This document shows positions 1,500-61,011 of a stretch of DNA of 64,000 nucleotides, in pieces. This DNA is from Anaerolineales bacterium (GTDB taxonomy: Bacteria; Chloroflexota; Anaerolineae; Anaerolineales; UBA4823): the NCBI GenBank assembly GCA_003105035.1, contig PQAL01000019.1, forward strand, positions 62,001-126,000, given 5' to 3'. The notes beneath the pieces are model-generated. The model was not told the DNA's origin. It did not search any database and saw nothing but the letters and a program-made list of their open reading frames with translations. Within the stretch, counting starts at the first letter, position 1, and every line of letters starts with the position of its first letter. The translations under genes and the position numbers were made by a program.

Positions 1500-1512
1500 T
1501 CAATAAATAGGA

Positions 1513-1550
1513 AAGGGCGCATGGAAATCGCATCATGTGCCCTTAATATT
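1513..1550 (+). terminator. terminator after tyrS
   Basis: AAGGGCGCATG at 1513-1523 pairs with CATGTGCCCTT at 1534-1544, with one mismatch, around a ten-base loop. An A/T-rich tail (AATATTT) follows. It lies 14 bases after the tyrS stop codon. Confidence 0.65.
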
Positions 1551-1615
1551 TAAATAAGCTACTTTTCGGTGTACAAAGCGTATAATAGCTAGAGCTTAAC
1601 TGCAAGGAGGATCTT

Positions 1616-1996
1616 ATGAGTGACAGCAATCCCAATGAAAACAAACCGAAGGAAGAATCGATCAGTGAACAGCTGAATGAGCTGGGGAACAACCTGCGGG
1701 ATGCCCTGCATGCAGCCTGGACAAGTGAAGAACGGCGCAAGCTCCAGCAGGATATTGAAACCGGCCTGGCCAGCCTGGGCGCATCCTTGAGCCAGGCGGC
1801 CAAGGACTTCTCTGGCACATCCACGGGCCAAACAATTAAGGAAGACGTCAAAGACCTGCAAGAGCGGTGGCGCACCGGTGAAGTGGGCTCGAAGGTCCAT
1901 TCTGAGGTCGTCGATGCATTACGCAAAGTGAATGACGAGCTACAAAAAGCTGCCCGAAAGAATACCCCTCCCCCACCGGATCAACCCAGCTCTTAA
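1616..1996 (+). CDS. small helical protein of unknown function
   Basis: This 126-residue protein is highly charged, has no membrane segment and no cysteines. Residues 15-110 read as long amphipathic helices (ISEQLNELGNNLRDAL, KEDVKDLQERW), and the tail is proline-rich (TPPPPDQPSS). An AAGGAGGATCTT ribosome-binding site precedes the ATG, and a TATAAT-like -10 element lies at 1581-1586. It is the first gene of a probable three-gene unit with the membrane protein and GerW-family protein that follow, with only eight bases to the next start. I do not recognise the family. A cytoplasmic scaffold or stress-related coiled protein is possible but unproven. Confidence 0.8.
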   Translation: MSDSNPNENKPKEESISEQLNELGNNLRDALHAAWTSEERRKLQQDIETGLASLGASLSQAAKDFSGTSTGQTIKEDVKDLQERWRTGEVGSKVHSEVVDALRKVNDELQKAARKNTPPPPDQPSS

Positions 1997-2004
1997 GAGG
2001 AACC

Positions 2005-2277
2005 ATGTTGGACATAGAAAACCTTGTCCGCAGCGGAGAACCTCAGCAGGTGGGTGATGTTGAACTCATCCCCCAAACCAATGTGCTGCAGATCAAGCTG
2101 CGTGGGCACAATGCAGGCCTGGTCTGGAACCGGCCCCGGGCAGTATTACTCAGAAGGCCCGATGGCCAGGAAACCATCCTGCCTGTCAAAGATATTACCC
2201 GCACGATCATTTGGGGGATGCTGGCGGGAGGTATCTTAGGGGCGGTCTTAATTGGATTGATGAAGCGAGAAAAATAA
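2005..2277 (+). CDS. small single-pass membrane protein of unknown function
   Basis: This 90-residue protein has a soluble N-terminal part of about 65 residues, rich in beta-forming segments. One C-terminal transmembrane helix (IIWGMLAGGILGAVLIGLM, about residues 68-86) ends in the basic tail KREK. The topology suggests a tail-anchored protein with its N-terminal domain in the cytoplasm. AGAGGAACC precedes the ATG. The gene is tightly spaced between the helical protein upstream and the GerW-family gene 31 bases downstream, which also ends in a membrane helix. The two membrane proteins may act together. No family is recognised. Confidence 0.78.
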   Translation: MLDIENLVRSGEPQQVGDVELIPQTNVLQIKLRGHNAGLVWNRPRAVLLRRPDGQETILPVKDITRTIIWGMLAGGILGAVLIGLMKREK

Positions 2278-2308
2278 AGCCTGAGCGTTGAAAAAAGGAG
2301 GTAATGCT

Positions 2309-2746
2309 ATGACAGATGAACTGGCAAGCACTCAGCCCGAGCTGGCTGGTTATGAAGCATTTCAAGACACAATGGAGGAATTTTTAGCAGCTGGTGACGT
2401 CAGGGTGGTGTACGGTGAACCGATCCAGCACGAAGATACGCTGATCATCCCGACAGCCGAGGTGCTATGCGTGGCTGGTTTCGGTGTCGGAGGAGGTAGC
2501 GGCACGGATACCGAGAAAAACCCCGAAAACCTTTCCCGCGGTTCAGGCAGTGGAGGAGGTGGTGGCGGGCGTATTCTATCAAGACCGGTAGCGGTGGTCG
2601 TCGCTTCACCCGAAGGTATACGGATAGAACCAGTTGTAGATATCACAAAAATCGCCCTGGCGGGCCTGACTGCGATGGGCTTCATGGTTGGCATGCTATT
2701 CCGTATGAGCGGTAGACGGCATAGCTTACCAGAACTGGAAGAATAA
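2309..2746 (+). CDS. GerW/YtfJ-family protein
   Basis: This 145-residue protein resembles the GerW (sporulation protein YtfJ) family. It has an N-terminal helix, the VVYGEPI and TLIIPTAEV segments, a glycine-rich linker (GVGGGSG, then GSGGGGGG), and the RPVAVVVASPEGIRIEPV segment typical of the family. A hydrophobic C-terminal stretch (ALAGLTAMGFMVGMLF) follows. I chose the ATG at 2309 because AAGGAGGT lies at the right distance before it. An in-frame TTG at 2288 would place that ribosome-binding site inside the gene. Family members also occur in non-sporulating bacteria, so its presence does not show that this organism makes spores. Confidence 0.85.
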   Translation: MTDELASTQPELAGYEAFQDTMEEFLAAGDVRVVYGEPIQHEDTLIIPTAEVLCVAGFGVGGGSGTDTEKNPENLSRGSGSGGGGGGRILSRPVAVVVASPEGIRIEPVVDITKIALAGLTAMGFMVGMLFRMSGRRHSLPELEE

Positions 2747-2827
2747 GGTTACAAAGATAGTGAATGATCTGAGCATCAAGCTGGGGTATTGAGCTCAATT
2801 AGCAAATTTTTCCCTCTTCACGACGTA

Positions 2828-2865
2828 AATCCTCATGGGAATTTCCACCCGTGAGGATTTTATTT
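2828..2865 (+). terminator. terminator after the GerW-family gene
   Basis: AATCCTCATGGG at 2828-2839 pairs with CCCGTGAGGATT at 2848-2859, with one mismatch, and a T-rich tail follows. The 336-base gap between 2747 and 3082 contains this terminator. Otherwise it holds only A/T-rich sequence leading to the STAS gene. Confidence 0.75.
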
Positions 2866-3082
2866 CCCTTGAATTGATGTAGGTTAAAGTTGGGCGTAGA
2901 TCTAAAGAAATAACCGATGAGATGTGTTGATAGTAAGATAACCCACTTTGATGAGGAGGTTGCGCTACGAAGAAGACCTGTATTTCATCGTAAGGCTGCA
3001 ATCTGGTAAAATTAACCAGTTATATGGAATGAGTTTTATTCCTTGATATAGAAATAATAGCTATCCTGCGAGGAGGAGTATT

Positions 3083-3412
3083 ATGGATATACAGACAACT
3101 GAATTAAAGCGCTGTACCGTCGTCAAGACCAGCGGCCGCATCGACGGCTCCAACGCCCAGGAGTTTGGTCAAGCCCTTAAAGCCATAACTGCTAAGAACA
3201 CGTACAATATCGTGTTTGATATGAGCGAGGTGAACTTTGTTGCCAGCGCCGGGTGGTGGGTCTTGATCGACACTCAAAAAACATGTAAACCAAGTGGTGA
3301 GCTGGTGCTGGTTAAAGTCGACAAAGGTATCAGGGATTCACTAAACCTGGTGGGGATGGGCTCTTACTTCACCATATTTGAGGACCTCACGACCGCGGTA
3401 GGTAACTTTTGA
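3083..3412 (+). CDS. STAS-domain anti-sigma factor antagonist
   Basis: This 109-residue protein is a single STAS domain of the SpoIIAA/RsbV type, a small cytoplasmic protein that binds an anti-sigma kinase when unphosphorylated. VVKTSGRIDGSNAQEF (about 13-28) is the typical first strand and helix, and VFDMSEVNFVASAGWW (44-59) is the phosphoacceptor loop. The loop reads ASAG instead of the usual DSSG or DSTG, so Ser55 is the likely phosphorylation site and the preceding Asp is missing. A GAGGAGGAG ribosome-binding site precedes the ATG. The stop overlaps the TTG start of the RsbW-like gene by four bases, indicating translational coupling and partnership. Its target sigma factor is not evident in the window. 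Confidence 0.9.
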   Translation: MDIQTTELKRCTVVKTSGRIDGSNAQEFGQALKAITAKNTYNIVFDMSEVNFVASAGWWVLIDTQKTCKPSGELVLVKVDKGIRDSLNLVGMGSYFTIFEDLTTAVGNF

Positions 3413-3837
3413 TAGGCATAATGCCGACACAACGGTTCTCTTGCAGTTTGAATAATCTGGAAAAGATCTGCGATTACGTATCCCAGTATGCCACTGAAGC
3501 CGGGTTGGATGAATCGGAGGTGTATGCGGTCCAGCTAGCCGTTGATGAGGCGACTACCAACATCATCGAGCATGGTTATGGCCAGGAATGTCCAAGTCGC
3601 ATCGATATTACCTGCGAGATCCTGAAAGACGGGCTCAAAGTGGTGATCTATGATGACGCTGAGCCCTTTGACCCATCTTCAGTGCCAGAGCCGGAGGTGA
3701 ACGTGTCTCTGGATGATATTAAACCGCGCGGTCTGGGTATTTTCCTGATGCGTAAAATGATGGATGAGGTCAGCTATGAGGCTAATCCCGAACTCGGCAA
3801 TATTTTGACCATGATCAAGCGTCATAAACCAAAATAA
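3409..3837 (+). CDS. RsbW-like anti-sigma regulatory serine/threonine kinase
   Basis: This 142-residue protein is a GHKL-fold ATPase of the RsbW/SpoIIAB class. The N-box is QLAVDEATTNIIEHGY, the G1-like segment is VIYDDAEPFDP, and the G2 region is PRGLGIFLMRKMMDEVSY. Such kinases phosphorylate their STAS partner, and many also bind a sigma factor. The start is either the TTG at 3409, overlapping the STAS stop, or the ATG at 3421. The TTG would give classic stop-start coupling and is listed here. It forms a two-gene unit with the STAS gene and converges on a SpoIIE-type phosphatase that could reverse its reaction. Confidence 0.92.
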   Translation: MIGIMPTQRFSCSLNNLEKICDYVSQYATEAGLDESEVYAVQLAVDEATTNIIEHGYGQECPSRIDITCEILKDGLKVVIYDDAEPFDPSSVPEPEVNVSLDDIKPRGLGIFLMRKMMDEVSYEANPELGNILTMIKRHKPK

Positions 3838-3893: not shown

Positions 3894-5943
3894 AACCTTT
3901 TTCTCGCCCCAGGATAACCAGGGTCAGGTCATCAAAACGAGACGCATCGCCTACGAAATGATGGACTTTTTCGAGGATATTTTTTTGCACAACCTGAACT
4001 GATTTCCCGGAATTCTTCTGAACCGTGTTCAAGATGATTTTCCGATCGATGAATTCACCTGCGTTGTTCTGCGCGTCCGTCACACCATCCGTGTACAGCA
4101 GCAAAATCTCACCAGGCAAAATTTCCACCTCATCTTGTGACCAATCGTTTTCTTCATCAATACCAAGTGGCATCCCGGTATTTCCCAGTGTGCGTATCCC
4201 AGTAGAGCCAATTAAAAAGGGTGGATTGTGCCCTGCATTTGCATAACATAACGTGCCCGTGACTGGATCGAGCACGCCAAAAAACACCGTGACGAACAGA
4301 TTCGCACGGGCATTACGCAGGATTTGTTGGTTGGCCGACTTCATGACCTGGGCAGGGTCGCGTGGGTACTGGGTGGCAAATGTGCGAATCAATGTATTGC
4401 TCAAGGCCATGTATAAAGCCGAACCCAAGCCCTTATCAGCAACGTCGGCAATCAGGAAGCCTAATTTTCCGTCAGGCAAGCTGATGAAATCATAAAAATC
4501 TCCTGCGATCTGGCGAGCAGGCTCGAGGGCAGCAGCGATCTCCCAGCCGGGAATTTGTGGAATCGCCTCGGGTAAAAAGCTAGCCTGGATGGAACGAGCC
4601 AGCGAGAGCTCCTGGAGGGTCTTTTGCATCGCCAGAGAATTTCGATACATGCGGGATTGGTGAATGGCCGAGGCTACCTGTGCAGCCAGAGACTGGACGG
4701 CAGGCAGCTGCCTGCGCAAAGCCTGGTTGTTCCATGGTATGTTCAAGGTCTGCAGCTCGATGAACACCTCGCCAATCGGCAGATTGGTTTCTTCGTCCAT
4801 GACCGGGCACAGGATGAGCGGGCCAGCCAGTGTGATAGTCGGGTCCCAGGGCAGGCGTTTACCTGGCATGGAATAATACGCTTCGTTTTTCTCCCGCAGC
4901 CACTGCCAGGCTAATTCACGGTTGAACAAGGAGTTTTCCGGATTCTGAACCAGCACTCCCTTGTCTTCCGTCCACACGAGGATCGCCTGCGATGCGAACA
5001 TGGGCAATACATGGCTTTTCAACACCTCAGCCAGCATAGAGCCATCCGGTGGGGCATCCAGGATGGCGCGCCCTAATTTTTCCAGCTGCTCAATCTGGCT
5101 GGATTGCTGCCGGGAGTATTCCGCTGCCTGGCTTAGGCGGCGTGCCAAAATAGCCACAAGCAGCAGGCCAAGGGTGATGAATAAAAATTCGTCCAGTCCT
5201 TCTGAAACATAAATCCCGGCTGCTAGAATCCCGAATGGATTAGCGAGGGCAGGTAGCGTGAGTGCCATGAAGAAGAATGAAACAGCCGGCCTGGCTGGAG
5301 TGTGTAAAACATTCTTAAGTGACCAGATTACATATCCGATGTAACCTGAGTAGACCACAAGAGAGCACAAATACTGGACAACCACCGCCAGAAATGCTGG
5401 AAGGATGTATTCTATCGAGGGACCTGGTATGGGTATTAAACCCCCAACCCTTTGATACACTACCAATGCCACCAGGGTTGCCAGTAGATCTATCGATAGG
5501 TCTGCGGATAGCAACCGGCTGCGGTTCCAATACGATTGGGTTGTCTTATCCTTGTTTATTGAGGTGACAAAGGTCATGAAATCCCATAAAACCTTCAACC
5601 ATAAGGCGGTTGGACCGAGGGTAAGTATTGCAGCCCAAACCGCAATCCCATCCATCGCCCCGTCAGAATTGGCATAGCCACCCGAGCGGATTTCAGTGAT
5701 GAAGAAGAAACGCAGGCGGTTAAATAAGTAAAGTATTACCGCCATCAGGAGGTAGTCTTTCCAGTAGAGGCGTATAGAAGACCAATCTGACACCCGCAGC
5801 AACCAGACCAGGCCGGCCACAGCCATAGGGAAGGTATAGATCAACGTAAGCACGTCGGCTGTACTTGACATGCGTTGCTGGCCAGTCAGGTTTTTTAACT
5901 CAGGTCGGATTTTTAGGGCGAGATTATATATGATATCGTTCAT
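3892..5943 (-). CDS. membrane-anchored SpoIIE-type PP2C phosphatase
   Basis: This protein of about 683 residues combines three regions. The N-terminal third has several transmembrane helices (for example MAVAGLVWLL and the pair FMALTLPALANPFGILAAG, FLFITLGLLLVAI). A GAF-like region follows, and then a C-terminal SpoIIE/PP2C phosphatase domain with the metal-binding motifs ARQIAGDFYDF, IADVADKGLGSALYMAL and LLLYTDGVTDAQN. Such enzymes dephosphorylate STAS antagonists. The adjacent convergent STAS/RsbW pair is the obvious partner. I placed the start at the ATG at 5943, which has AAGGAAG upstream. An in-frame TTG at 5979 would add 12 residues. The integral membrane domain suggests that an envelope or lipophilic signal is sensed. 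Confidence 0.92.
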   Translation of the reverse strand: MNDIIYNLALKIRPELKNLTGQQRMSSTADVLTLIYTFPMAVAGLVWLLRVSDWSSIRLYWKDYLLMAVILYLFNRLRFFFITEIRSGGYANSDGAMDGIAVWAAILTLGPTALWLKVLWDFMTFVTSINKDKTTQSYWNRSRLLSADLSIDLLATLVALVVYQRVGGLIPIPGPSIEYILPAFLAVVVQYLCSLVVYSGYIGYVIWSLKNVLHTPARPAVSFFFMALTLPALANPFGILAAGIYVSEGLDEFLFITLGLLLVAILARRLSQAAEYSRQQSSQIEQLEKLGRAILDAPPDGSMLAEVLKSHVLPMFASQAILVWTEDKGVLVQNPENSLFNRELAWQWLREKNEAYYSMPGKRLPWDPTITLAGPLILCPVMDEETNLPIGEVFIELQTLNIPWNNQALRRQLPAVQSLAAQVASAIHQSRMYRNSLAMQKTLQELSLARSIQASFLPEAIPQIPGWEIAAALEPARQIAGDFYDFISLPDGKLGFLIADVADKGLGSALYMALSNTLIRTFATQYPRDPAQVMKSANQQILRNARANLFVTVFFGVLDPVTGTLCYANAGHNPPFLIGSTGIRTLGNTGMPLGIDEENDWSQDEVEILPGEILLLYTDGVTDAQNNAGEFIDRKIILNTVQKNSGKSVQVVQKNILEKVHHFVGDASRFDDLTLVILGREKG

Positions 5944-18201: not shown

Positions 18202-18702
18202 TCAAGCCTCCCTCAGCTTGCTGATCACGTCGAGTGCACTCTCAACCGTCTGGTTCTCATGGTATTCAATTCCCTGTGGGCCCTGTACCTGGAACATGGG
18301 GGCCTTATCACACCCCGCCAGGCACATGACCGCTTCGACCTTCACCTTTCCATCTGGCGTAGTTTCGCCAACCTTGATCCCCAGGTTTTCACATAATTTT
18401 TCAAGAAATTGATCAGCCCCGCGCAAGGCACAGGGCAGGTCAGTACAGACCTGGACATGATATTTCCCGGTCGGTTGATCGTAATAAAGTGTATAAAAGC
18501 CGATTATGGAGGCAACTTCCGTGGTGCTCATCTCACATATTTCAGCGATCTGCAGGATCGCATCCTTGGTCACGTAACCGTTATCCAGCTGGGCGAGATA
18601 CATCAGAGGCATGACTGCTGAACGTTTACCCAGCTCGTCGGCAGGATATTTCGCCAGGATTGCCTGGATTTCGTCGGGATGTTTTTCGAGGAATGGATTC
18701 AC
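18202..18702 (-). CDS. nuoE: NADH-quinone oxidoreductase subunit E
   Basis: This 166-residue thioredoxin-fold subunit binds the 2Fe-2S cluster N1a. The four cysteine ligands appear as VCTDLPCAL and MCLAGCDKAP. It starts with GTG, overlapping the nuoD stop by four bases (GTGA), with GGGAG upstream, so translation is coupled to nuoD. It is adjacent to nuoF, with which it forms the NADH dehydrogenase module. Confidence 0.96.
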   Translation of the reverse strand: MNPFLEKHPDEIQAILAKYPADELGKRSAVMPLMYLAQLDNGYVTKDAILQIAEICEMSTTEVASIIGFYTLYYDQPTGKYHVQVCTDLPCALRGADQFLEKLCENLGIKVGETTPDGKVKVEAVMCLAGCDKAPMFQVQGPQGIEYHENQTVESALDVISKLREA

Positions 18703-19931
18703 CGGTCACAATCTCCCAAAACAATATCAACGCTGCCAATGATGGCGACCAGATCAGCGACCAGGTGGCCTTTGGCCAGAACTGGAAGGGCCTGGATGCC
18801 CAGGAAGGACGGTGTGCGCATGTGTATTCGGTAAGGTTGATTGCCCCCGTTGCTTTCCAGGTAGTAGCCTAATTCACCTTTTGGTGATTCAACTGGCAAG
18901 TATGTCGCACCCTTAGGCACCTTAAATCCTTCGGTCCATAATTTAAAGTGGTGGATGACTGCCTCCATGCTGGTGCCCAGTTCAGCCCGGGGTGGAGGTA
19001 CGTACTTGCGGTTGTTCGAGCGGAACGGACCGAGAGGCAGTTTATCCAGGGCTTGCTGGATGATACGCAAGGATTGGCGCATTTCTTCAATGCGCACCAG
19101 GTACCGGTCATAGACATCACCATGGGTACCGGTTGGGATGACAAAATCGTACTGCTCGTACCCTGAATAAGGCTGGGCTTTGCGCACATCATAAGCCACA
19201 CCTGATCCTCTCAGCACAGGACCAGTCAGGGACAAGGATATTGCTTGATCGGCGCTGATCCGACCGATTTTCTTGGTCCGGTCAGTGAAGATTGGGTTCT
19301 TGGTGAGCAACGCTTCATACTGTTTGATGCGGCCAGGGAACATGCGTAGAAAGCGGCGAACCGCGATCTCAAATTCAGCCGGAATATCGCGCCACAGCCC
19401 ACCCGGCCTGAAGAAGGTGGTCATCATGCGCTGGCCTGAACACAATTCCTTGATATCGAGGATGGATTCGCGCTCGCGAAAGCAATAGAGAAACATGGAT
19501 TGGGCAGCCAGGTCGAGCGCCTGCGTCCCCAGCCACACCAGGTGGTTGGAGATGCGTTCCAGCTCAGCCAGAATGACGCGCACCGCCTGTGCACGGGGTG
19601 GGACGTCCAGATCAGCCAGCTTCTCGATGGCCAGGCAGTAGGCCAGGTTATTACCGGTGTTATTGAGATAATCAGTCCGGTCGGTCATCACTTCGGCTAG
19701 CTCCCAACGCTTGGCTTCCATGTTCTTCTCGATCCCGGTGTGCAGGAAGCCAACATCCGGGATGCAGTTCACAATGACCTCACCGTCCAGCTCAAGCAGC
19801 AAGCGCAGCACACCATGTGTGCTGGGGTGCTGGGGGCCCATGTTCAATAAAACAGTCTCACCTTTGAGGGCGCGTTCGGAAACAAGATGCTTCAATTCAG
19901 GAAAATCGTATTCCAGTGGCTGTTCCGTCAT
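18699..19931 (-). CDS. nuoD: NADH-quinone oxidoreductase subunit D
   Basis: This 410-residue 49-kDa-type subunit lines the quinone site with NuoB. NMGPQHPSTHGVLRL carries the conserved His pair at the quinone pocket, and DVGFLHTGIEKNME and DRTDYLN are also typical. The protein ends in IVLGDCDR, where most homologues have an acidic residue before DR (for example GEVDR), a small variation on the usual C-terminus. It is separate from nuoC, not fused, and starts three bases after the nuoC stop. Confidence 0.97.
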   Translation of the reverse strand: MTEQPLEYDFPELKHLVSERALKGETVLLNMGPQHPSTHGVLRLLLELDGEVIVNCIPDVGFLHTGIEKNMEAKRWELAEVMTDRTDYLNNTGNNLAYCLAIEKLADLDVPPRAQAVRVILAELERISNHLVWLGTQALDLAAQSMFLYCFRERESILDIKELCSGQRMMTTFFRPGGLWRDIPAEFEIAVRRFLRMFPGRIKQYEALLTKNPIFTDRTKKIGRISADQAISLSLTGPVLRGSGVAYDVRKAQPYSGYEQYDFVIPTGTHGDVYDRYLVRIEEMRQSLRIIQQALDKLPLGPFRSNNRKYVPPPRAELGTSMEAVIHHFKLWTEGFKVPKGATYLPVESPKGELGYYLESNGGNQPYRIHMRTPSFLGIQALPVLAKGHLVADLVAIIGSVDIVLGDCDR

Positions 19932-51614: not shown

Positions 51615-53207
51615 ATGCTCGCAAGAATCTTTTCCTGTGCTGTGATTGGTTTGGAAGGTGTTGTGGTTGAGGTGGAGGTTGACACCGGCCTCGGCCTGCC
51701 AGGGATGACCATCGTTGGATTGCCCGACACGGCTGTGCAGGAAAGCCGCGAGCGCGTCCAGGCTGCCGTCAAAAACGCCGGGATTGAGTTCCCCCGCAAG
51801 CGCATCATCGTCAATCTTGCACCTGCTTCAGTGCGCAAGGAAGGCCCGGCCTATGACCTGCCGATCGCGTTGGGTGTTTTAGTGATGGCGGGACGGCTTC
51901 CCCAGGCTGCCTGCGAGGACGCCCTGGTGGTGGGGGAGTTGTCTCTGGATGGCAGCGTGCGGCACTCGCGTGGCATTCTACCCATGTCCGTGGTCGCCCG
52001 CCAGCAAGGTTTCAAGCGCATCTTCGTCCCGCAGAGCGACGCAGCCGAAGCAGCCTTGATCCCCAACCTGGAGGTTATCCCGGTGACCAGCCTGGCGGAG
52101 CTGTACGGTCACCTCTCTGGCCTGCAGCCCATCCCAGCCCAGCAGCCCATCACGCCCGAGCAGCTGCCGGTGCTGGTTCAGACCGACTTTCAGGAGATCA
52201 AGGGCCAGGAACACGTCAAACGTGCCTTCGAGGTTGCCGCGGCTGGGAGTCATAATCTCCTGATGACAGGCCCACCGGGATCGGGCAAGACCCTGCTGGC
52301 ACGTGCTATGCCAAGTATCCTGCCGCACCTCACTGTTGATGAAGCCCTGGACGTCACCCGCATTTATTCAGTAGCAGACCAGCTCCCCCCAGATGTGCCC
52401 CTAATCCAAAACCGCCCATTCCGCGCCCCGCACCATACCATCAGTCATGCCGGGCTGGTGGGTGGAGGAAATTGGCCTCATCCAGGTGAGATATCCCTGG
52501 CTCACCGTGGGGTACTCTTCCTGGACGAGCTGCCTGAATTCGGCCCGCGCGTCTTGGAAGTGCTACGCCAGCCAATCGAAGATAAGACTGTCACCATCAG
52601 TCGGGCGCAGGGCTCGCTTACCTTTCCTGCCAACTTCCAGCTGATTGGAGCCATGAATCCATGCCCCTGTGGCTACTTCGGTGACCCGGTCAAGGCTTGT
52701 ACCTGCTCGCCAGGCATCGTCACTAAATACCATAAACGTATCTCTGGCCCGCTGCTCGACCGCATCGATATCCACATCGAAGTGCCCAGGGTGGAATACG
52801 ACAAGCTGAGCGACCAACGCCTGGGCGAGCCTTCTGCAACCATCCAGAAACGGGTTGAAGCGGCCAGGCAGATCCAGCGCGAACGCTTCCTTGTTGGGGC
52901 GAAGCATTCGTCAAACGAACCGGAAAATGTAAATAAATATTCACCGGCAAATGCTTCGCCCTTACAAAGTATCCAGTGTAATGCCGACATGCGCCCGGCG
53001 GAGGTGCGCCAATTCTGTGATCTGGATGATACCAGCCGCACCCTGATGCGCTCAGCCATGAGCCAGCTGCAGCTCTCGGCACGTGCTTACCACCGCATCC
53101 TCAAGCTGGCACGGACGATAGCAGATCTTGGAGGAAGCGAAAGGATACAGCCCGCTCACCTGGCCGAAGCACTGCAGTATAGACCGAAGGGGATGGATGC
53201 GAATTAA
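51615..53207 (+). CDS. comM: ComM/YifB-family AAA+ ATPase with an in-frame repeat insertion
   Basis: This 530-residue protein is a Mg-chelatase-type AAA+ ATPase. The N-terminal S5-like domain begins [15 protein letters not shown]. Walker A is [11 protein letters not shown], and Walker B is [22 protein letters not shown] is the family zinc-like motif, and [10 protein letters not shown] is the sensor region. In homologues the C-terminal QRF-NADM junction is short. Here about 27 residues ([20 protein letters not shown] and onwards) lie between RERF and [10 protein letters not shown], encoded by the palindromic repeat at 52891-52967. ComM helicases help branch migration in natural transformation. 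No strong ribosome-binding site precedes the ATG. Decayed copies of its mid and 3' regions lie downstream. Confidence 0.93.
52891..52967 (+). repeat. 77-bp palindromic element inside comM
   Basis: TTGTTGGGGCGAAGCATT at 52891-52908 and AATGCTTCGCCCTTACAA at 52950-52967 are inverted arms matching at 16 of 18 positions. Inside, two CCGG sites flank an A/T-rich core. Short GGGGCGAAGCATT palindromes are known as dispersed repeats in some bacteria, which is general knowledge and not verified here. The insertion keeps the reading frame open. Confidence 0.85.
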
Positions 53208-53336
53208 TAACGTTCTGATTAGCCGTGAACTGCACAATAAAGGGTTTTTGTTTCAATAACCCAAATACTTAATCTTTATATCGGTGTGTAATAAATCATC
53301 CGTCACTAATGGTAAAGGATAAATTATTAATATGAG

Positions 53337-53365
53337 TTGACATCACTTCCATTATTTTCTATAAT
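53337..53365 (+). promoter_or_regulatory. consensus promoter of the FG-GAP gene
   Basis: TTGACA at 53337-53342 and TATAAT at 53360-53365 are exact consensus with a 17-base spacer. Transcription would start near 53372, giving a leader of about 220 bases. The leader contains an AAGGAGGTG motif near 53465 followed by only a four-codon frame (TTG ACC GAA GAA TAA). Confidence 0.85.
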
Positions 53366-53505
53366 GTAACAAGCTGGTTATAAATTTTCTCAACCCAATC
53401 TTCTGATATCGATTGATTTATTAACCGTGGCGATATTCTTATAACAATGGTCCTAAAGATTTCGAAGGAGGTGGGGTAGGATTGACCGAAGAATAAGCTG
53501 TGTAT

Positions 53506-53544
53506 AAACCAGAACGAAGAAAAAGGTGATCGTCTGGTTTTTTT
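53506..53544 (+). terminator. terminator-like hairpin in the FG-GAP leader
   Basis: AAACCAGA at 53506-53513 pairs with TCTGGTTT at 53533-53540, and a run of seven T lies at 53538-53544. It lies downstream of the promoter and upstream of the gene. It could be an attenuator rather than the end of a transcript. Confidence 0.65.
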
Positions 53545-53593
53545 GTTACATCAACCCAATTTTTTAATAACAACTAAGGTGAGGAGGAAGCAC

Positions 53594-55090
53594 ATGAAAC
53601 GATTGTTGTATCTATTAACGTCTCTGATCTTCGTTGCAGGCTTCTTACAGATTACGAATGGTGGGCATAACAACCAGGGTGGACAAGCAGCTGTATTGAA
53701 CCCTTTACTTCAGGGAATAAATACATTACCTTACCCAATGAATCCATTCCTAACGCCAGATTGGATTGGTGAGGCCAATTATGGCGGTGACAGCTACGGT
53801 GCTGCTGTTTCCACGGCTGGCGATGTGAATGGTGATGGGTATGCAGATATCATCCTTGGAGCGCCATATTACATGAATGGGGAAATCATGGAAGGCCGCG
53901 TCTATGCATACTACGGCTCCGCAACAGGCTTAAGCACGACTCCAGATTGGACGTTTGAGAGCAATTTGGCAAAGTGTCAGCTTGGCTGGAAGGTTGCCTC
54001 AGCTGGTGATGTGAATAATGATGGATTTGACGATGTCCTCGCTTCATCCGAATATTGCACCACGGGTGATCCAGACACTCACCGTGAAGGTCGAGTATAC
54101 CTCTTCCTGGGCTCGGCGGACGGTCTTCCAAGCAATTACAATTGGATGAAAAATGGGGGAACATCCGATGAAAGCTTCGGGTGGTCAATTGCATCTGCTG
54201 GTGATGTGAATAATGATGGATTTGATGACGTGATCATCGGTGCTCCCTGGGCGGATTATCCGGAAGGCAACGAAGGTCGGGCATACGTCTTTTATGGCTC
54301 AGCCAGTGGTTTTGCAGATACCGCAAATTGGGTCACTGAAAGCGATATAGCCTGGACCGGTTACGGTACATGGGTGGACTCGGCTGGCGATGTCAATGGA
54401 GATGGCTATGCTGATGTAATTGTCGGTCATCCGGGCTGGAGTAGCCCTGATGAAGCTGAAGGTCGTGCGTATGTTTACCTTGGCTCGGTGTCCGGGCTGT
54501 CACTTACAGCTTCGTGGACCTTTGAGAATAACCACGCGTATAGTGAGCTGGGGATTTCTGTTGCTGGAGTTGGGGACATCAATGGGGATGGATACGACGA
54601 TGTAATGGTTGGCGGTGGCAAGTATCCAAATCCTTTGCCTTACGAGGGCATTGCCTATCTATTCCTTGGCTCTGCAGCTGGACCGTTATCAACTCCAGCC
54701 TGGTCGCAGGAAGGCAACCAAAAATGGGCACAGTTTGGTTGGTCTATTGCCCCAGCAGGAGATGTCAATGATGATGGATATGATGATGTCATCATTGGAT
54801 CACCGTGGTATACCGATACATTACGTGGAGAAGGCGCGTCATTTCTCTTTTTTGGCTCACCCAACGTAAATCCTTTCACAACTGAATATCACATAGGTGC
54901 CAAGCAAACTGATGCCAAATGGGGTTGGTCAGTTAATACAGCTGGAGATGTGAATGGCGATGGTCGTGACGATATTATCGTCGGGGCGCGAGATTATGAT
55001 GGTGGCGAAAACAATGAAGGCCGCGCTGTCGTCTTCTATGGCATGCCCGATTTCATCGCACAGATATTACTGCCAATAACCCTCCGTTGA
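53594..55090 (+). CDS. secreted FG-GAP/VCBS-type beta-propeller protein
   Basis: This 498-residue protein has a signal peptide (MKRLLYLLTSLIFVAGFLQ) and seven FG-GAP repeats, each with the calcium-binding signature in the order GDVNGDGYADIILGAP, GDVNNDGFDDVLAS, GDVNNDGFDDVIIGAP, GDVNGDGYADVIVG, GDINGDGYDDVMVG, GDVNDDGYDDVIIGSP and GDVNGDGRDDIIVG. Seven repeats fit one closed integrin-alpha-like propeller. The C-terminal LLPITLR is typical of Chloroflexota exported proteins, which is an impression. GAGGAGGAAGC precedes the ATG. It lies between comM and the first comM fragment and so is the first cargo gene of that zone. Confidence 0.92.
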   Translation: MKRLLYLLTSLIFVAGFLQITNGGHNNQGGQAAVLNPLLQGINTLPYPMNPFLTPDWIGEANYGGDSYGAAVSTAGDVNGDGYADIILGAPYYMNGEIMEGRVYAYYGSATGLSTTPDWTFESNLAKCQLGWKVASAGDVNNDGFDDVLASSEYCTTGDPDTHREGRVYLFLGSADGLPSNYNWMKNGGTSDESFGWSIASAGDVNNDGFDDVIIGAPWADYPEGNEGRAYVFYGSASGFADTANWVTESDIAWTGYGTWVDSAGDVNGDGYADVIVGHPGWSSPDEAEGRAYVYLGSVSGLSLTASWTFENNHAYSELGISVAGVGDINGDGYDDVMVGGGKYPNPLPYEGIAYLFLGSAAGPLSTPAWSQEGNQKWAQFGWSIAPAGDVNDDGYDDVIIGSPWYTDTLRGEGASFLFFGSPNVNPFTTEYHIGAKQTDAKWGWSVNTAGDVNGDGRDDIIVGARDYDGGENNEGRAVVFYGMPDFIAQILLPITLR

Positions 55091-55103
55091 AAATCTGAAT
55101 TGG

Positions 55104-55162
55104 ACGAAGCGCTCATTTCCTACAGCGTGAAATTCAGTAAGTGTAAATGAGCGCTTCGTTTT
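55104..55162 (+). terminator. 15-bp perfect stem after the FG-GAP gene
   Basis: ACGAAGCGCTCATTT at 55104-55118 pairs perfectly with AAATGAGCGCTTCGT at 55145-55159. TTTT follows. The loop is 26 bases long. Confidence 0.75.
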
Positions 55163-55227
55163 ACATGGTAATTCTGTCAGATCAATCAGTCAGCCTAAAG
55201 AGGGTAGGAAATCATTGTTTCAAGCAA

Positions 55228-55580
55228 ACGACGCGGCCAGGCAGATCCAGCGTAAGCGCTTTCTTGTCGGGGCGAAGCATGCATCAAACGAACCGGAAAA
55301 TATAAATGATCATTCACCGGCAAATGCTTCGCCCTTACAAAGTATCCAGTCTAATGCCGACATGCGCCTGGCGGAGGTGCGTCCATTCTGCGATCAGGAT
55401 GATACCAGCCGCACCCTGATACGCTCAGCCATGTGCCAGCTGCAGCTCTCGGAACGCGCTTACCACCGCATCCTCAAGCTGGCGCAAACAATTGCAGATT
55501 TGGGGGGAAGTGAGAGGATCCAACCAGCGCACCTGGCTGAGGCGCTGCAGTACCGGCCCAGGATGATGGAGATATACTGA
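55228..55580 (+). pseudogene. comM 3'-end fragment 1
   Basis: The segment matches comM 52855-53207 without any net insertion or deletion and includes the 77-bp palindromic element. Of about 348 aligned bases I count about 52 differences (about 85% identity), many at third codon positions in the last third. The two are equally long to the stop codon. It encodes the YifB C-terminus (NADMRLAEVRPFC through [11 protein letters not shown]) but has no upstream ATPase, no ribosome-binding site and no ATG. Some substitutions (C for S at the CQLQLS segment) suggest decay. It is most likely a remnant of a separate, once-functional comM allele. Confidence 0.85.
55264..55340 (+). repeat. second copy of the palindromic element, in comM fragment 1
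   Basis: TTGTCGGGGCGAAGCATG at 55264-55281 and AATGCTTCGCCCTTACAA at 55323-55340 are the arms. The element sits at exactly the same position relative to the comM frame as the copy in comM and has the same length. It must therefore predate the split of the two sequences. Confidence 0.85.
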
Positions 55581-55803
55581 CCCTGGCTTTTCATCCATAG
55601 ATCTATACGGGGTAAACAATAACAAGCTACATACTTCCTCAAAATTTTGTCCGGTAACCAGACCATCATTTTCCCCCTTCCCTCAGACCCTGGAATTCCG
55701 TGGACCAAGATATAATCGAAGGTTAGTATTTTTCATTCTCCTATCGATCTGTCGAGCATTTCATTGATAATAATGCTTATTCTAATCCGGAAGGATCAAA
55801 CCT

Positions 55804-57045
55804 ATTTCACCTCTTACGCGACGTGAATTTCTAAAAGCTCTGGCGATCTTTGCTGCCACACCCGTGTTTGGCCGTAAGCTCAACCGCTTGGATAGACTCG
55901 CCCAGGCCTCGAACCAGAAGGTCGATGTCTATGTAGCGCACAATGGCTCACCCACGACAAATGTAAGAAGAGTCATTGACATAGCTGGCGGCATCCAGCA
56001 TTTCATTGGCAGCGATGATGTGGTTGTGCTCAAACCCAACGGGCAATGGCCAAACCAGGGATATACACATACCCAGTGTATAAAAGCTCTTATTGATGTA
56101 ATCCTCGATAGGCCGGGTGGTTTCACCGGGGAGATCATCCTCACCGAGCATGTACACCGCGACCCGGTAGCCGCCATGTCTGGTAACTATTGTTGGAACA
56201 TGTCAGAAGGTAACCGTGTGAACAACTGGCCTGTTATGAATTACCTTGAGTTGATTGCAGATTATCAAAACCAAGGTTTTCCGAATGTCACCGCTGATCC
56301 CCTGTACGATTCTGGTCAAGGGAATTGGGAAAAGGTCACAGGGCCAGACATGGTTGGACCAGGCAACCAGGGTTGGGTACACAGCCCATACACGACTATC
56401 GCGAACGGTCGCATCGTAGAACTGTCTTATCCCATCCTCCGCTCGAGTTACAGCGATAGATTGATTGACCTAAAAAACGGCGTCTGGCAAGGCGGTGCCT
56501 ATACCGGGCAAAATGTGAAGCTCATCCTCCTGCCCACCCTCAATAACCACGGGAGCTTTAATATTGAAGATTATGCTGGTCCAACCAGCGCACTCAAGAC
56601 CCATATTGGTGTTGTTGATTTTGGTAATCTTTCCAATTACACCTTGCATGGCGTCGGGTATAGCAAACCAATCAGCCCGCAAGCTATGGGAGAATCAGTC
56701 GGACATTTGATTACCCAGCTGCTCAGGCCAGTTTTCTATATGACCTGCGCCGAATTCACCGGCTATCGAAGCCGTACTGACCCGATTGCAGCACATACCA
56801 AAACAGTGGGATTATGCACAGATCCAGTGACGCTAGATTACTGGATGAGCAAGTATGTCATGTACCCGTGCGCCCCAAGCCAGGCTTTTATGAATCCAGA
56901 CAATGACAACAACCTGCGTAAGGCATTAATGGGGTGCAATTCGAAAGGGGTAGGAACAATCGTGGAAGCAGATATTAACGTGCATCTATCCGATTTGAGC
57001 TTTGATAATCGTATCTACATGCCCGTGGTCAATGATTCGCCATGA
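55804..57045 (+). CDS. Tat-exported DUF362-like protein with no ATG/GTG/TTG start for its signal peptide
   Basis: From codon 55804 the frame reads ISPLTRREFLKALAIFAATPVFG, a textbook Tat signal (TRREFLK), followed by a DUF362-like domain: GSDDVVVLKPNGQW, GYTHTQCIKALIDVIL and GEIILTEHVHRD. The nearest upstream stop is TAA at 55783-55785. Between it and the twin arginines there is no ATG, GTG or TTG. The only plausible initiators are ATT at 55804 (eight bases after GGAAGGA) and ATC at 55795. The first canonical start, GTG at 55864, would remove the signal peptide. Either non-canonical initiation or a mutated start is implied. About 413 codons. The role of DUF362 proteins is not established. Confidence 0.8.
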   Translation: MSPLTRREFLKALAIFAATPVFGRKLNRLDRLAQASNQKVDVYVAHNGSPTTNVRRVIDIAGGIQHFIGSDDVVVLKPNGQWPNQGYTHTQCIKALIDVILDRPGGFTGEIILTEHVHRDPVAAMSGNYCWNMSEGNRVNNWPVMNYLELIADYQNQGFPNVTADPLYDSGQGNWEKVTGPDMVGPGNQGWVHSPYTTIANGRIVELSYPILRSSYSDRLIDLKNGVWQGGAYTGQNVKLILLPTLNNHGSFNIEDYAGPTSALKTHIGVVDFGNLSNYTLHGVGYSKPISPQAMGESVGHLITQLLRPVFYMTCAEFTGYRSRTDPIAAHTKTVGLCTDPVTLDYWMSKYVMYPCAPSQAFMNPDNDNNLRKALMGCNSKGVGTIVEADINVHLSDLSFDNRIYMPVVNDSP

Positions 57046-57309
57046 TGATTGCCATATCTTCAGGCTTAAAACATGATCCTGGTCTCTCAGACATTCATAA
57101 AATTTCACAAAGCTCGTCTTACCTGGTAAATATGACCTGCTTTCCATTGAAATCGGGTTGCCGGCAATAATTACACTAGAGCTGGCACGGCCAAGATGGA
57201 ACCGTATTCGTTTATGGTCCTTTCCATTCAAGTATCCCTGTTTTGATAAATCGTAGGATAATAACCCTAATCAACAAGTAGGATGGGGTGGTTGACTCGA
57301 GGAGGGATC

Positions 57310-57984
57310 ATGTTTCGTAAACATCTCTTTCTGGTAGCGGTTACGGGTTTTTTTCTCACTTTCTTGGCAGCTTGTTCCCCGTCACCTCAAGCTTCCAAAA
57401 TAATTAGGCCAACATCTACACAAACCCAAGCACCAGAACGAGTTGCAACATCGACCGTCCAAGGCACAGATATAACAGTTATTGCAACTCCAACGGAAGC
57501 AGCAACCAGTGTCGCTGAGATAGAAGTTCCAGATCTATGCACAAATGCCAGTAACCCATGTGAATGTCTTGGCAAGCGAAATAAGCATGATGAAGAGCTT
57601 GGGGAAATAAAAGAAGGGTATATTGGTAGCTGGCATGCGGCACCCATGGTTGGTTCTGGATATAATGAACGTTTTGTATTTTTCCCTTCAGGCAATTATC
57701 TGTTTTTCCCCTCTCAATATGAATGTGACCTGAATGACTTAGCTTGTTCGCCATCTCCAATTGAGGAAGGAATCTGGGGTATCCAGGATAATCAGATGCA
57801 TCTGGCCACAGGCGGAGATATTGATAAGCTAAGAATTATTTCCATTGGAAAAGTAATTGATTCTTCACCCGATGAGAGTCCATATCCATTTAAAACAACA
57901 TTCGATGGGACGACTTATTGGCTAATGTCAAAAGATACGGATATGTGGAACCCACAAACAGGCGAGTTCTGTGATGGATTCTAA
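57310..57984 (+). CDS. lipoprotein of unknown function
   Basis: This 224-residue protein has a lipoprotein signal peptide with lipobox LAAC at residues 19-22 (FLTFLAACSPSP). A Thr/Ser/Pro-rich linker and a soluble domain follow (GSGYNERFVFFPSGNYLFFPSQ) with four further cysteines (LCTNASNPCECLG, ECDL, LACSP). GAGGAGGGATC precedes the ATG at 57310. An upstream ATG at 57283 would put extra residues before the signal. Composition is more A/T-rich than in most neighbours. The 264-base gap before it holds no gene. No family is recognised. Confidence 0.8.
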   Translation: MFRKHLFLVAVTGFFLTFLAACSPSPQASKIIRPTSTQTQAPERVATSTVQGTDITVIATPTEAATSVAEIEVPDLCTNASNPCECLGKRNKHDEELGEIKEGYIGSWHAAPMVGSGYNERFVFFPSGNYLFFPSQYECDLNDLACSPSPIEEGIWGIQDNQMHLATGGDIDKLRIISIGKVIDSSPDESPYPFKTTFDGTTYWLMSKDTDMWNPQTGEFCDGF

Positions 57985-58198
57985 TTGTTGTGATTAACTT
58001 TTACAGTGCGGTTAAATACGAGGCTTTTGGGTGTGAAGCTTACCCGAAGTTGCATCCAGATAATATATTGTTGTTGCCCTGGGATGGTCATCATTTGATT
58101 ATGGTTCTCGCCGATAAAAAATCCCTGGTTTGAGCATCCTTGGTATGATAATCCTGCTGAAATCAACCCATAAGATCAAATATTGATAAGGAGGAGAC

Positions 58199-58366
58199 AT
58201 GGAATATACAGTGGTCGAAGAACACAATCGTGAAGAACTTATTAGGAAAGTAGCAGAGCTGATAAAGCAAGGTTGGAAGCCTTTAGGTGGCATAGCTGTA
58301 TCGACAGTAGCACCAATGTTAGGGAATTATATATTTTGTCAGGCTATGATTAAAGACCAGCCATGA
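58199..58366 (+). CDS. DUF1737-family small protein
   Basis: This 55-residue gene starts at an ATG preceded by AAGGAGGAG and ends at TGA. The product MEYTVVEEHNREELIRKVAEL, then IKQGWKPLGGIAVS, is a classic DUF1737 protein (EYxVVE, then a helix, then GWxPxGG). The family has no known activity. It is short enough to be overlooked by length filters. It lies inside the comM-fragment zone, between the lipoprotein gene and comM fragment 2. Confidence 0.88.
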   Translation: MEYTVVEEHNREELIRKVAELIKQGWKPLGGIAVSTVAPMLGNYIFCQAMIKDQP

Positions 58367-58475
58367 AATCATAATGCTGTCTTGATAGCATGCCAGATAT
58401 GTGATTTCGATGTGGGGAGAGCGAAAGAGAAATATCATGGGATATCCCCATTATCCATATGATTTTCCCATTTCT

Positions 58476-58643
58476 GCACACTTTCCCATCCGCCATTGTA
58501 TTGCACCACACGCTTGCCCATGCAGGTACTTTGGTGACCCGGTCAAGGCCTGCAGCTACAGCCCCGGTACGGTCACCAAGTATCAGAAGCGCATCAGCGG
58601 CTGGCTCACCTGGCGGAGGCATTACATTACCGGCCATGGATGA
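58476..58643 (+). pseudogene. comM fragment 2, internally deleted
   Basis: The region encodes [19 protein letters not shown] and VTKYQKRISG, homologous to comM codons around [13 protein letters not shown]. It then jumps straight to GCTCACCTGGCGGAGGCATT, homologous to the [11 protein letters not shown] end of comM in another frame. About 390 bases of comM sequence between the two are missing. The flank before CPC (FPIRHCIAPHA) is one codon shorter than in comM and resembles fragment 4, so those two share a source. No ATG or ribosome-binding site was found for it. Confidence 0.8.
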
Positions 58644-58800
58644 TCGAAGCATGTTTATCTATCTCTATCCGTAGAAATTACCTATTTGCAAAAATAAATC
58701 TATAATTAGATTGCATACCTGATAGTAATCAGGAGAGAACTCCATGGTTTGGGCAACCAAGCAATGATAATTGCAATACGCACATTGGGATGAGGAACAA

Positions 58801-59469
58801 ATGGCAATGCCACAGACTGAAGAGAGCCTAAAGTCTAGCCAACACAATCGAAATGTGAAGATTGTGGTGGGTATTGGTTGTGGCTTGATTTTTGTCTTTG
58901 TTATCGTTTTAATCTTGTTTGTAATAAACTTCAATATCCAATTTATGCCTAAAATTGCTCAAGCTTTTTACACACCCACACCTACACCTACTGAGACACC
59001 CACACCGACTGCCACTCGTACACCAGCTCCGACACAAGACCCTAATCGTTATTATGCATCTGACGGAAGCTTCACGATGATCATCCCCGATGGCTGGGTG
59101 CTCCAGCATTCGGGTGGGAAATATGACAATTTGATTGATCCGCGCGTGGAGGAGAAACCTATTATTGGTTTTGCTACACAGGAAATTGATGTCTCCTTAT
59201 CAGAATATTCGTCTCTTGTCCAAGCAGCTGTAAAAAAGAAGTACACAGACCTGACTGCGATTAGTTATGATTCACTGGTAACACAAAATGGAAATCCATA
59301 TATACGGTGGGTAATCGGATACCCTTCGTCAAAGGAGAAATCGACATATTACTTCTTCGAGAATAATGGGATGAAACTACAGATCAATTATGTTCGCGGA
59401 GATCAGATGGGAGCTGAGTATGATGTCTTAGTGCAGGAGGCGATAAATACCCTTAGCTTTAATCCTTAA
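58801..59469 (+). CDS. anchored extracytoplasmic protein with TP-rich linker
   Basis: This 222-residue protein has an N-terminal transmembrane helix (IVVGIGCGLIFVFVIVLILFVI, about residues 20-41) and a Thr/Pro repeat linker (TPTPTPTETPTPTATRTP). A soluble C-terminal domain (SDGSFTMIIPDGWVLQHSGG, then KLQINYVRGD) resembles a small beta-sandwich. It is a signal-anchor protein. The C-terminal domain resembles PsbP-like or SpoIIIAH-like folds only in a general way. GATGAGGAACAA precedes the ATG at 58801. The 434-base gap before it is filled mainly by comM fragment 2. No family is recognised. Confidence 0.78.
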   Translation: MAMPQTEESLKSSQHNRNVKIVVGIGCGLIFVFVIVLILFVINFNIQFMPKIAQAFYTPTPTPTETPTPTATRTPAPTQDPNRYYASDGSFTMIIPDGWVLQHSGGKYDNLIDPRVEEKPIIGFATQEIDVSLSEYSSLVQAAVKKKYTDLTAISYDSLVTQNGNPYIRWVIGYPSSKEKSTYYFFENNGMKLQINYVRGDQMGAEYDVLVQEAINTLSFNP

Positions 59470-59723
59470 CAATTATTTTTAACCGTTATGGCTACCTACT
59501 TCGTTAATACTCTCCCGCTCAAAGCGGATTGGTTTTTATCAAGAGTTATTCGCCCATTCGTATAAATTTTAATCAGGCCAATTTATTATTTGTTATCCAG
59601 TAATGCGTCGGAGCTGCATATCAGATCCACCGCGACCGGTCTATTATTCATATGGAACGCCCAACTTAGTCAGACGAGCTTCCGATTAATGCCAACGAAC
59701 TAATTTTATCTCCAATACATAAT

Positions 59724-59935
59724 AATGCCGATATGCGCCCGGCGGAGGTGCACCAGTTCTGCGAGCTGGATGATACCAGCCGTGCCCTGAGGCGTTCTGC
59801 GATGAGCCAGCTGCAGCTCTCGGCACGCGCCTACCACCGCATTCTCAAGCGAGCCGCACCATCGCCGATCTGGCTGAAGCTATCCAGTACCTCAAGAACT
59901 CTTCAACGGCCTGGATTCCAAAAATGAACAATTAA
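59724..59935 (+). pseudogene. comM fragment 3, frameshifted
   Basis: AAT GCC GAT ATG starts a region homologous to comM from [10 protein letters not shown] to the end (QFCELDDTSRALRRSAMSQL and onwards). A four-base deletion at CTCAAG/CGAGCC shifts the frame. A 33-base in-frame deletion, probably between CTGGC direct repeats, removes the segment before AEAIQY. The last residues, IQYLKNSSTAW, differ from comM, fragment 1 and fragment 2. The gap 59470-60057 holds this fragment and little else. Confidence 0.85.
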
Positions 59936-60057
59936 TTGCCCCGCCTGCCAGAAATTGTTATAATGATTTTATGAAATGCCACAAAAATCGGAAGACAGGA
60001 AATTCCAGAAGATTTTAGATTTTCAGTTTATTTAAATAAAACAAAAAGGAGGAGTAT

Positions 60058-60216
60058 ATGAAGGATAAGTTGCTTCTATCAATAGCCGTCATATTTATTC
60101 CTGCCTCCTCACATTTACCCACCCGCCGTCGAATTGAACTGCACGCCTGCCCATGTGGTTATTATCATAACCCGGCCAGGACCTGCCACTGCTCATCTGG
60201 CATAAGAAACAAGTAA
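60058..60216 (+). pseudogene. comM fragment 4 fused to a short hydrophobic leader
   Basis: A 52-codon frame starts at an ATG preceded by AAAAGGAGGAGTAT, a strong ribosome-binding site. It begins MKDKLLLSIAVIFIPASS, which looks like a signal sequence. It then continues into LHACPCGYYHNPARTCHCSSG, homologous to the [18 protein letters not shown] motif of comM. The homology ends in IRNK and TAA. The chimera could be a decayed comM piece captured behind another start, or a small expressed peptide. It is 11 bases before the dNK start codon. Confidence 0.65.
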
Positions 60217-60227
60217 CGGAAGTACCT

Positions 60228-60848
60228 ATGGGAAAATTAATCGTAGTAGCCGGAAACCTTGGCGCAGGTAAGACAACACTCACCAAGATCATCTGCGATA
60301 AAGCGGGATTTACTCCTTATTGGGAAAAGCCCGAAGAGCATCCTTTTCAAAAGGACTTTACGGCTGATATTCGTAAATGGGCCCTGGCGAACCAGATGGA
60401 TTTTCTGCTCTATCGCGGTGAACAGGAGAGGCTCATCCGGCGGGATGATCAAATCGCGGTTATGGATGGGGGATTCGACCAGGATTTCCATGTATTCACT
60501 AAAAATCTTTACAATAAAGGCCATCTGATTGCAGATGAATACCGGATATGTGAGCGCTTTTATTATTTTGTTAGGGGTTATTTGCCCCCACCAGATATTA
60601 TTATCCGAATCTTGATCGATGCGCCAACTTTGCTGCAGAGGAGATTGCAAAGGGATAGAAAAACAGTTGATCAACGATTTAATCCACATGAATTTGTTGA
60701 TCTTGAGCTGTTGCTGGATGGATGGTTGATGAGCGAGGTTTCATCCCAGGTCTTGCTGTTTCCTTTTCAGCAAGATTTAGACCATTGCACAGACGAAATC
60801 GATGACCTAATCAGGCAAGTCAGGGACATTGTTAACACTTCCCCCTAA
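60228..60848 (+). CDS. deoxynucleoside kinase family protein
   Basis: This 206-residue protein has the P-loop GNLGAGKTT (residues 9-17), then an FPAW-type segment in which WEKPEEHPF carries the usual substrate glutamate, and a lid region LQRDRKTVDQRF. The motif usually read DRS/ERS is DGGFDQDFHVF here, probably normal for this branch. It salvages deoxynucleosides. It begins 11 bases after comM fragment 4, so it may depend on that leader for transcription. No terminator was found between 60849 and 61011; that gap holds only a weak imperfect hairpin near 60899-60921. Confidence 0.9.
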   Translation: MGKLIVVAGNLGAGKTTLTKIICDKAGFTPYWEKPEEHPFQKDFTADIRKWALANQMDFLLYRGEQERLIRRDDQIAVMDGGFDQDFHVFTKNLYNKGHLIADEYRICERFYYFVRGYLPPPDIIIRILIDAPTLLQRRLQRDRKTVDQRFNPHEFVDLELLLDGWLMSEVSSQVLLFPFQQDLDHCTDEIDDLIRQVRDIVNTSP

Positions 60849-61011
60849 TAATTCAGTGACTGAGACGCATCCCAACAGGAATAGATTTAGATATATCTAG
60901 GTGAGCCTATTCAGCTTACCTGGTTTGAGGTTCCTTGGTTTGAGATTCCAGATACTATAAATTGATAGTGAAAGATGTTGAGATATTTGTGGTCGGATGG
61001 ATCTCGAGCAT

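Follow-up and report, generated by a model that had tools for sequence, protein, structure and literature searches.

Arrays of displaced comM 3' ends with variable cargo in Chloroflexota: a probable case of target-restoring accretion

Integrons collect arrays of small cassettes, themselves without a recombinase, behind one head site; ccr genes define the staphylococcal cassette chromosome (SCC) elements, and the Tn7-like AbaR islands of Acinetobacter bring transposition genes and interrupt comM, flanked by a short duplication of the target. The ssrA-specific islands of Dehalococcoides stand in tandem behind one single-copy gene, with the target 3' end repeated at their boundaries; 16 dsiB homologs are reported for them, along with 15 islands that lack an integration module (PMC3146451). 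The same source places SCC elements at rlmH, with CcrAB, among serine-recombinase islands (PMC3146451). In islands at transfer RNA genes (tDNA islands), the split target is restored, a displaced fragment lies at the far end and tandem arrays occur (PMC4383910). Among predicted site-specific large serine recombinases, 12.4% target magnesium chelatase/protease genes, a frequent annotation of comM (PMC10083194), and the sr1 recombinases of phage WO split the magnesium chelatase gene (PMC9203015). Here we analyse a stretch of 64,000 nucleotides from an Anaerolineales bacterium (G000:C19:62001-126000, the window; source genome 4.45 Mb in 43 contigs), in which an intact comM heads an array of displaced comM 3' ends. 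Arrays of this kind are real and widespread among related genomes, and they probably grow by site-specific accretion that restores the target gene.

The comM reading frame is open in the window (51615-53207), and four decayed pieces of its 3' half follow downstream, all on the + strand, with unrelated genes between them (Table 1). All four had been named in the original prediction, which was made from the sequence alone, and all were recovered by tblastn and blastn with the window comM as query against the window. Fragment 1 shares 85% of amino acids and 86.5% of nucleotides with the window comM and has lost its first 67 codons together with the adjoining non-comM sequence (the R end, described below); the fragments are not near-identical copies of the local gene. 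Fragment 2 fuses two comM parts at 58604-58620, an internal deletion, and matches comM DNA at 58515-58595 (73%). Fragment 3 matches in DNA at 59723-59880 (85%) and in protein, with stops, at 59592-59855. Chance similarity is ruled out for fragments 1-3 by their nucleotide E values (8e-116, 3e-45 and 3e-7, respectively). Fragment 4 is weak on its own (E 1e-4), yet carries an R end; the piece predicted at 60058-60216 is real, and its start was set too early, with comM homology confined to 60139-60213. A DNA search of the whole source genome returned the same comM places only, fragment 4 not being among its matches. No tRNAs or Rfam families were found near the array.

Searches of 61 genomes (the source genome and 60 relatives) with the window ComM revealed that in G001, G004 (four copies), G005 and G047 (two copies) partial 3' copies lie downstream of comM and share its strand and contig; G047 is a single-contig genome from a different family. 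In G406, likewise assembled as one contig, three open 3' copies come after comM, spaced by 14.7, 20.5 and 6.3 kb; G452 holds ten copies across ~166 kb, its head copy covering aa 212-527 only, with no match to aa 1-211 found on that stretch; and the comM of G300 has twelve pieces behind it across 50 kb, in small units of which one holds an APH-type kinase. Apart from G300, 65 copies were counted in 35 stretches, of which 31 hold any and four none. Among copies on stretches that also hold comM or a long part of it, and leaving aside those within 15 bases of a stretch end, 36 of 38 lie downstream on the comM strand, both exceptions being in G264. An assembly artefact is unlikely because the pattern also occurs in the single-contig genomes G047 and G406 and on a 1-Mb contig of G300. 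The genes beyond the arrays offered no useful conserved markers, and the distal flanks are not syntenic.

Copies that have kept their 5' edge start at codons 347-348 (between MN and PCPCG), immediately 5' of CCTGYCC, which in DNA corresponds to codons 347-350. Directly upstream of this breakpoint stands the R end, which is alike in units with different cargo. In G406, three junctions have TTCAATT[AG]TGTACAC in common despite different cargo; G004 and G005 carry ACATTGTGTGTATC with variants, the window and G300 carry ATTGAACTRCACG with variants, and in G473, which belongs to a different class of the phylum, three units share an R-end type of their own. Many junctions were found by the R-end pattern itself, hence 22 R ends that do not match the pattern were measured apart; their mean pairwise identity is 0.53 at positions -10 to -1 and 0.24-0.30 at -90 to -21, with three G451 rows in the set out of register. 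Scanning 84,980 species with the exact degenerate pattern gave 35 stretches, 25 of which run into comM 3' sequence (24 in records that have Chloroflexi, Chloroflexota, Anaerolineae or Anaerolineales in the title, and one, L141, in a record titled Omnitrophota), while the remaining ten have no clear 3' copy at the match. When three mismatches were allowed in a scan of the class, 24 of 396 genomes gave a total of 27 matches, and the reversed pattern gave five. IMG/VR had 0 matches to the R pattern. Hairpins or folded attC-like sites were rejected as a description of the R ends (z-scores of -1.7 to +1.8 for eight R ends). In the G320 array (loci L200-L202), a palindrome unlike the sequences of other arrays, CGGTCTCCAGACCG, stands just before comM sequence at positions 22733, 24530 and 29624.

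The displaced ends diverge from resident comM as coding sequence does. Among 33 copies of at least 80 codons (G456 rows, in the wrong frame, and G453 being dropped), the third-position share of differences is at least 0.60 in 25, reaching 0.82, and 0.47-0.58 in the other eight; it is 0.61-0.74 in 13 comM-comM pairs between genomes. An in-frame stop is absent from the aligned part in 25 of the 33. Fragment 1 differs from the window comM at 9, 8 and 30 sites at codon positions 1, 2 and 3 (chi-square p 5e-5 against equality), in line with the third-position excess noted beforehand. The bias in most copies indicates that most of the divergence arose while the ends sat in working comM genes, in agreement with the original proposal of separately evolved 3' ends; the ends were imported, and decay set in afterwards. 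Identity in the 5' and 3' parts of comM correlates at 0.62 and that between halves of the 5' part at 0.87, which is suggestive only (27 rows, among them one outlier and two from the same genome).

These observations are best explained, with a probability of about 0.6, by accretion at comM that is site-specific, restores the target and depends on a recombinase supplied in trans. A unit would move as a circle in which cargo genes are joined to an R end and to a functional comM 3' end that runs from codon 348 to the stop (~0.55 kb). The junction of R end and comM on the circle would recombine with the same core in the resident comM, inserting the unit; the incoming 3' end would complete the gene and keep comM open, and the previous 3' end would be pushed downstream behind the R end. 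Repeated insertion would then build a same-strand array in which displaced ends decay. The original prediction had proposed repeated accretion of DNA bringing its own comM 3' end, and the many relatives with different cargo, the third-position divergence and the recombinase-free units agree with it; cargo bounded by comM pieces does vary among them, and the same gene order is not found everywhere. The donors were probably close relatives, because fragment 1 is closest to its own comM, and the mosaic copies of G406 suggest some conversion between copies.

Several observations weigh against this explanation. The G264 copies are inverted, a closely related empty comM site was not found, and seven close comM pairs gave no identity step at codon 347. 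Only 9 of the 27 three-mismatch pattern matches clearly run into comM 3' sequence. Copies often cluster by genome in a tree of 57 copies, and wide import is countered by fragment 1 itself, which is 86% identical in nucleotides to its own comM and at most 72% to comM of eleven other genomes. The cargo common to units of G452, G459 and G457 is not mirrored by the grouping of their left comM ends. Finally, no circle was observed and no recombinase was identified: neither PF00589 nor PF07508 is tied to the arrays, a resident tyrosine enzyme being indistinguishable from ordinary ones, and PF07508 is entirely without matches in five genomes, G004, G005 (56% complete), G383, G458 and G461, which can thus do without a resident serine recombinase today.

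The second-best reading, which we consider unlikely, is homologous recombination driven by natural transformation, in which foreign array DNA (comM end, cargo, comM end) would join the resident comM 3' region via RecA and the R ends would be hitchhiking leftovers of an old event. Units without a recombinase would follow naturally, as would the clustering of copies by genome, which conversion with the resident end would produce, and the G406 mosaics; repeats of ~0.5 kb are available as homology arms. However, such exchange gives no attachment of new cargo to an R end and leaves the similarity of R ends at one exact breakpoint unexplained. Site-specific recombination is favoured because the breakpoint is constant and a non-comM motif abuts it beside unrelated cargo. 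Transformation, suggested originally as a possible mechanism, thus fares less well as the inserting process, while it could still carry units between cells.

Cargo in the 50 bounded units ranges in size from 976 bases, in unit 3 of the window, to 37.7 kb, with a median of 12.5 kb, and no gene or ORF cluster is common to all. Next in size after unit 3 are the units of G456 (1,036 bases; a toxin-antitoxin pair of a MazE-like antitoxin and a DUF3368 protein, the DUF3368 match lying below the cut-off) and G288 (1,247 bases; a PhdYefM and PIN toxin-antitoxin pair), and a unit in G005 carries AbiEii-type toxin and XPB-like helicase genes. An oxidoreductase operon, which we read as of the molybdopterin type, recurs in the units of G452, G457 and G459; G001, a member of the window's family, has it in reverse orientation, and nucleotide identity is 65-79%.

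PF00589 (tyrosine recombinase) and PF07508 (large serine recombinase) were sought in all genomes supplying these units, and neither has a match inside any of the 50; the search of G300 covered PF00589 only. The earlier statement that no integrase is visible holds for both families on contig C19. Units of ~1 kb with a toxin-antitoxin pair alone cannot encode a recombinase. A profile of serine catalytic domains built by us found nothing in 41 stretches and recognised recombinases in other loci. The genes upstream of comM in six regions included no shared or integrase-like gene and one weak similarity only, and PF00589 had no match near the comM head site. A comM copy and a serine recombinase in which no catalytic part was detected lie ~32 kb apart on G462:C45, and a comM copy and a recombinase lie at least 26 kb apart on G457:C5. 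That ordinary integrase-bearing islands or prophages settled in comM, each integrase having since been deleted, is improbable: comM is a known serine-integrase target and the window units are decayed, but an integrase is retained in no bounded unit, including young open-ended ones and the neat 1-kb toxin-antitoxin units, and in Dehalococcoides 16 dsiB homologs are reported next to the 15 islands lacking the module (PMC3146451). Local duplication, in which each insertion or a tandem event duplicates the resident comM 3' end and the copy then decays, is very improbable, for although copies often cluster by genome and those of G451 are nearly identical, copies diverged by 14-26% are still open with third-position bias, where free decay would give a share near one third, and a non-comM motif at a fixed breakpoint would be unexpected.

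If an enzyme acts in trans in such accretion, it is most likely a large serine recombinase that targets comM and is encoded by another element, or else a tyrosine recombinase that has escaped recognition. Among 12 IMG/VR loci examined, a serine recombinase in L155 (8456-10114) abuts comM at MNPCPCGY, the same codons as the array breakpoint, and L147, L152 and L156 have one close to a comM part. L154 and L155 also have in common a second serine recombinase, at comM aa 384. A weak tyrosine-recombinase relative occurs in nearly all array genomes and was read in four, where it is single-copy (L193 1256-2161, L194 1487-2389, L195 1470-2366 and L196 1685-2578). It was rejected as the array enzyme on the grounds that IKKSE stands at what we take to be the place of the catalytic arginine and that it lies beside a tilS-like gene (our own reading) in three of the four genomes.

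Table 1. Features of the comM array in the window (positions count from the first letter of the window)
Feature	Position	Strand	Basis or remark
Intact comM, array head	51615..53207	+	Pfam Mg_chelatase, ChlI, Mg_chelatase_C
Proposed insertion point in comM, codons 347-348	~52653-52658	+	Breakpoint of displaced copies
Unit 1 cargo, FG-GAP repeat protein	53543..55090	+	PF01839
Fragment 1, displaced comM 3' end, aa 415-528	55230..55571	+	tblastn/blastn; Mg_chelatase_C
Unit 2 cargo, 393-aa protein	55864..57045	+	No Pfam family
Unit 2 cargo, 233-aa protein	57283..57984	+	No Pfam family
Unit 2 cargo, DUF1737 protein	58199..58366	+	PF08410
R end of fragment 2 into core, ATTGCACCACACGCTTGCCC type	58493..58519	+	Same type in G300
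Fragment 2, displaced comM 3' end, aa 346-383 fused to aa 514-529	~58508..58651	+	tblastn/blastn
Unit 3 cargo, 232-aa protein	58771..59469	+	No Pfam family
Fragment 3, displaced comM 3' end, aa 409-499, stops	59592..59880	+	tblastn/blastn
R end of fragment 4 into core, ATTGAACTGCACGCCTGCCC	60130..60152	+	Resembles R end of fragment 2
Fragment 4, displaced comM 3' end, aa 347-371, 25 codons	60139..60213	+	E 1e-4
Deoxynucleoside kinase gene directly behind fragment 4	60228..60848	+	PF01712

Pfam, at a cut-off of E 0.001, bears out the FG-GAP, DUF1737 and deoxynucleoside kinase labels given earlier to the window cargo; the DUF362-like label of the 393-aa protein and the labels of the 233-aa and 232-aa proteins are unsupported because these have no Pfam family at that cut-off. 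The kinase gene may be part of the chromosome or of a following unit that is unbounded. Beside cargo genes of the array, at 57237-57267, 58124-58154, 58743-58773 and 60919-60949, stands a 31-base repeat of the CCTGGTTTGAG... type whose copies are 68-84% alike.

The comM segment of codons 347-425 (79 aa) is present in 332 of 396 class genomes, in 40 of them in two or more copies, and the window's order was seen in 9 of 32; these census counts and those for the phylum were made by hand, and the extra copies, not each tied to an array, may be split or contaminating genes. Among 251 genomes sampled from the phylum, 191 outside the class have a match, and 7 of these hold at least two copies. Among four of these inspected, G473 has R ends, G580 has one short piece behind comM and G652 one piece; G514 was rejected as an array, its comM being rearranged.

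Other arrangements were met at a few loci. In L093 (G264, array positions 433-3712) and L208 (G195), comM 5' parts are opposite in orientation to 3' copies; G264 has a second, truncated comM, and both genomes look as though segments had inverted. L101 (G383:C2, 12,475 bases) is a single unit with both ends inside comM 3' sequence, on a contig that overlaps itself by exactly 40 bases, being either a circle or a repeat collapse. G158:C11 (L203) has two comM parts (aa 203-525; 4683-5582 and 18261-19160) 13.6 kb apart with equal census scores, and their truncation point is unlike that of the arrays.

The arrays show where genes are gained repeatedly in a large phylum with few cultured members, and they point to an unrecognised way of gene collecting. 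Their displaced ends are a readable record of acquisitions, and island finders that require an integrase would miss the units because a recombinase was found in none. The identity of the enzyme acting at these codons, which serine integrases of other bacteria favour, becomes testable. We further suggest, tentatively and with some doubt, an integron-like cassette system of Chloroflexota, with a comM head site, cassettes that each carry a functional last third of comM and, at the other end, an R site specific to the lineage, and a recombinase whose gene lies elsewhere. If this is true, cassettes as small as one toxin-antitoxin pair or as large as entire respiratory operons move while the gene of a DNA-processing helicase is never broken. 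The literature search, with most subscription papers and preprints outside its reach, found no paper on comM islands in Chloroflexota.

Like integrons, the arrays line up small cassettes behind one head site, each holding anything from one gene to a toxin-antitoxin pair; unlike in integrons, an integrase beside the head site and a strongly folded end site were not found, and the cassettes carry a gene end. The target is shared with AbaR islands, comM being intact here. As in SCC, islands sit at a fixed single-copy gene, whereas a ccr-type recombinase was not found in the units. Of the features of target-restoring islands, the arrays show a fixed point in a single-copy gene and a regenerated target with a same-strand displaced fragment; a recombinase encoded aboard is seen in 0 of 50 units. 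tDNA islands likewise restore the target and have the far end marked by the displaced fragment, but their target is a short RNA gene and an integrase aboard is a database requirement (PMC4383910), whereas comM arrays replace a long coding end and none was found. Serine-recombinase prophages (WO sr1, PMC9203015, and L155, at the same codons) also target comM, which they split with the recombinase aboard; in the arrays comM is restored, and open in the window, and a serine recombinase aboard was not found. The Dehalococcoides ssrA islands, also of Chloroflexota, likewise form tandem stacks with a conserved motif beside the repeat and some islands without an integration module; they have a tmRNA target, a 20 bp repeat and, in many islands, DsiA/B serine recombinases (PMC3146451), whereas comM arrays use a site inside a protein gene, replace ~0.55 kb and have a recombinase match in no unit examined. 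Compared with these known systems, the arrays stand apart by the long protein-coding replacement end, the recombinase-free units and the very small size that units can have.

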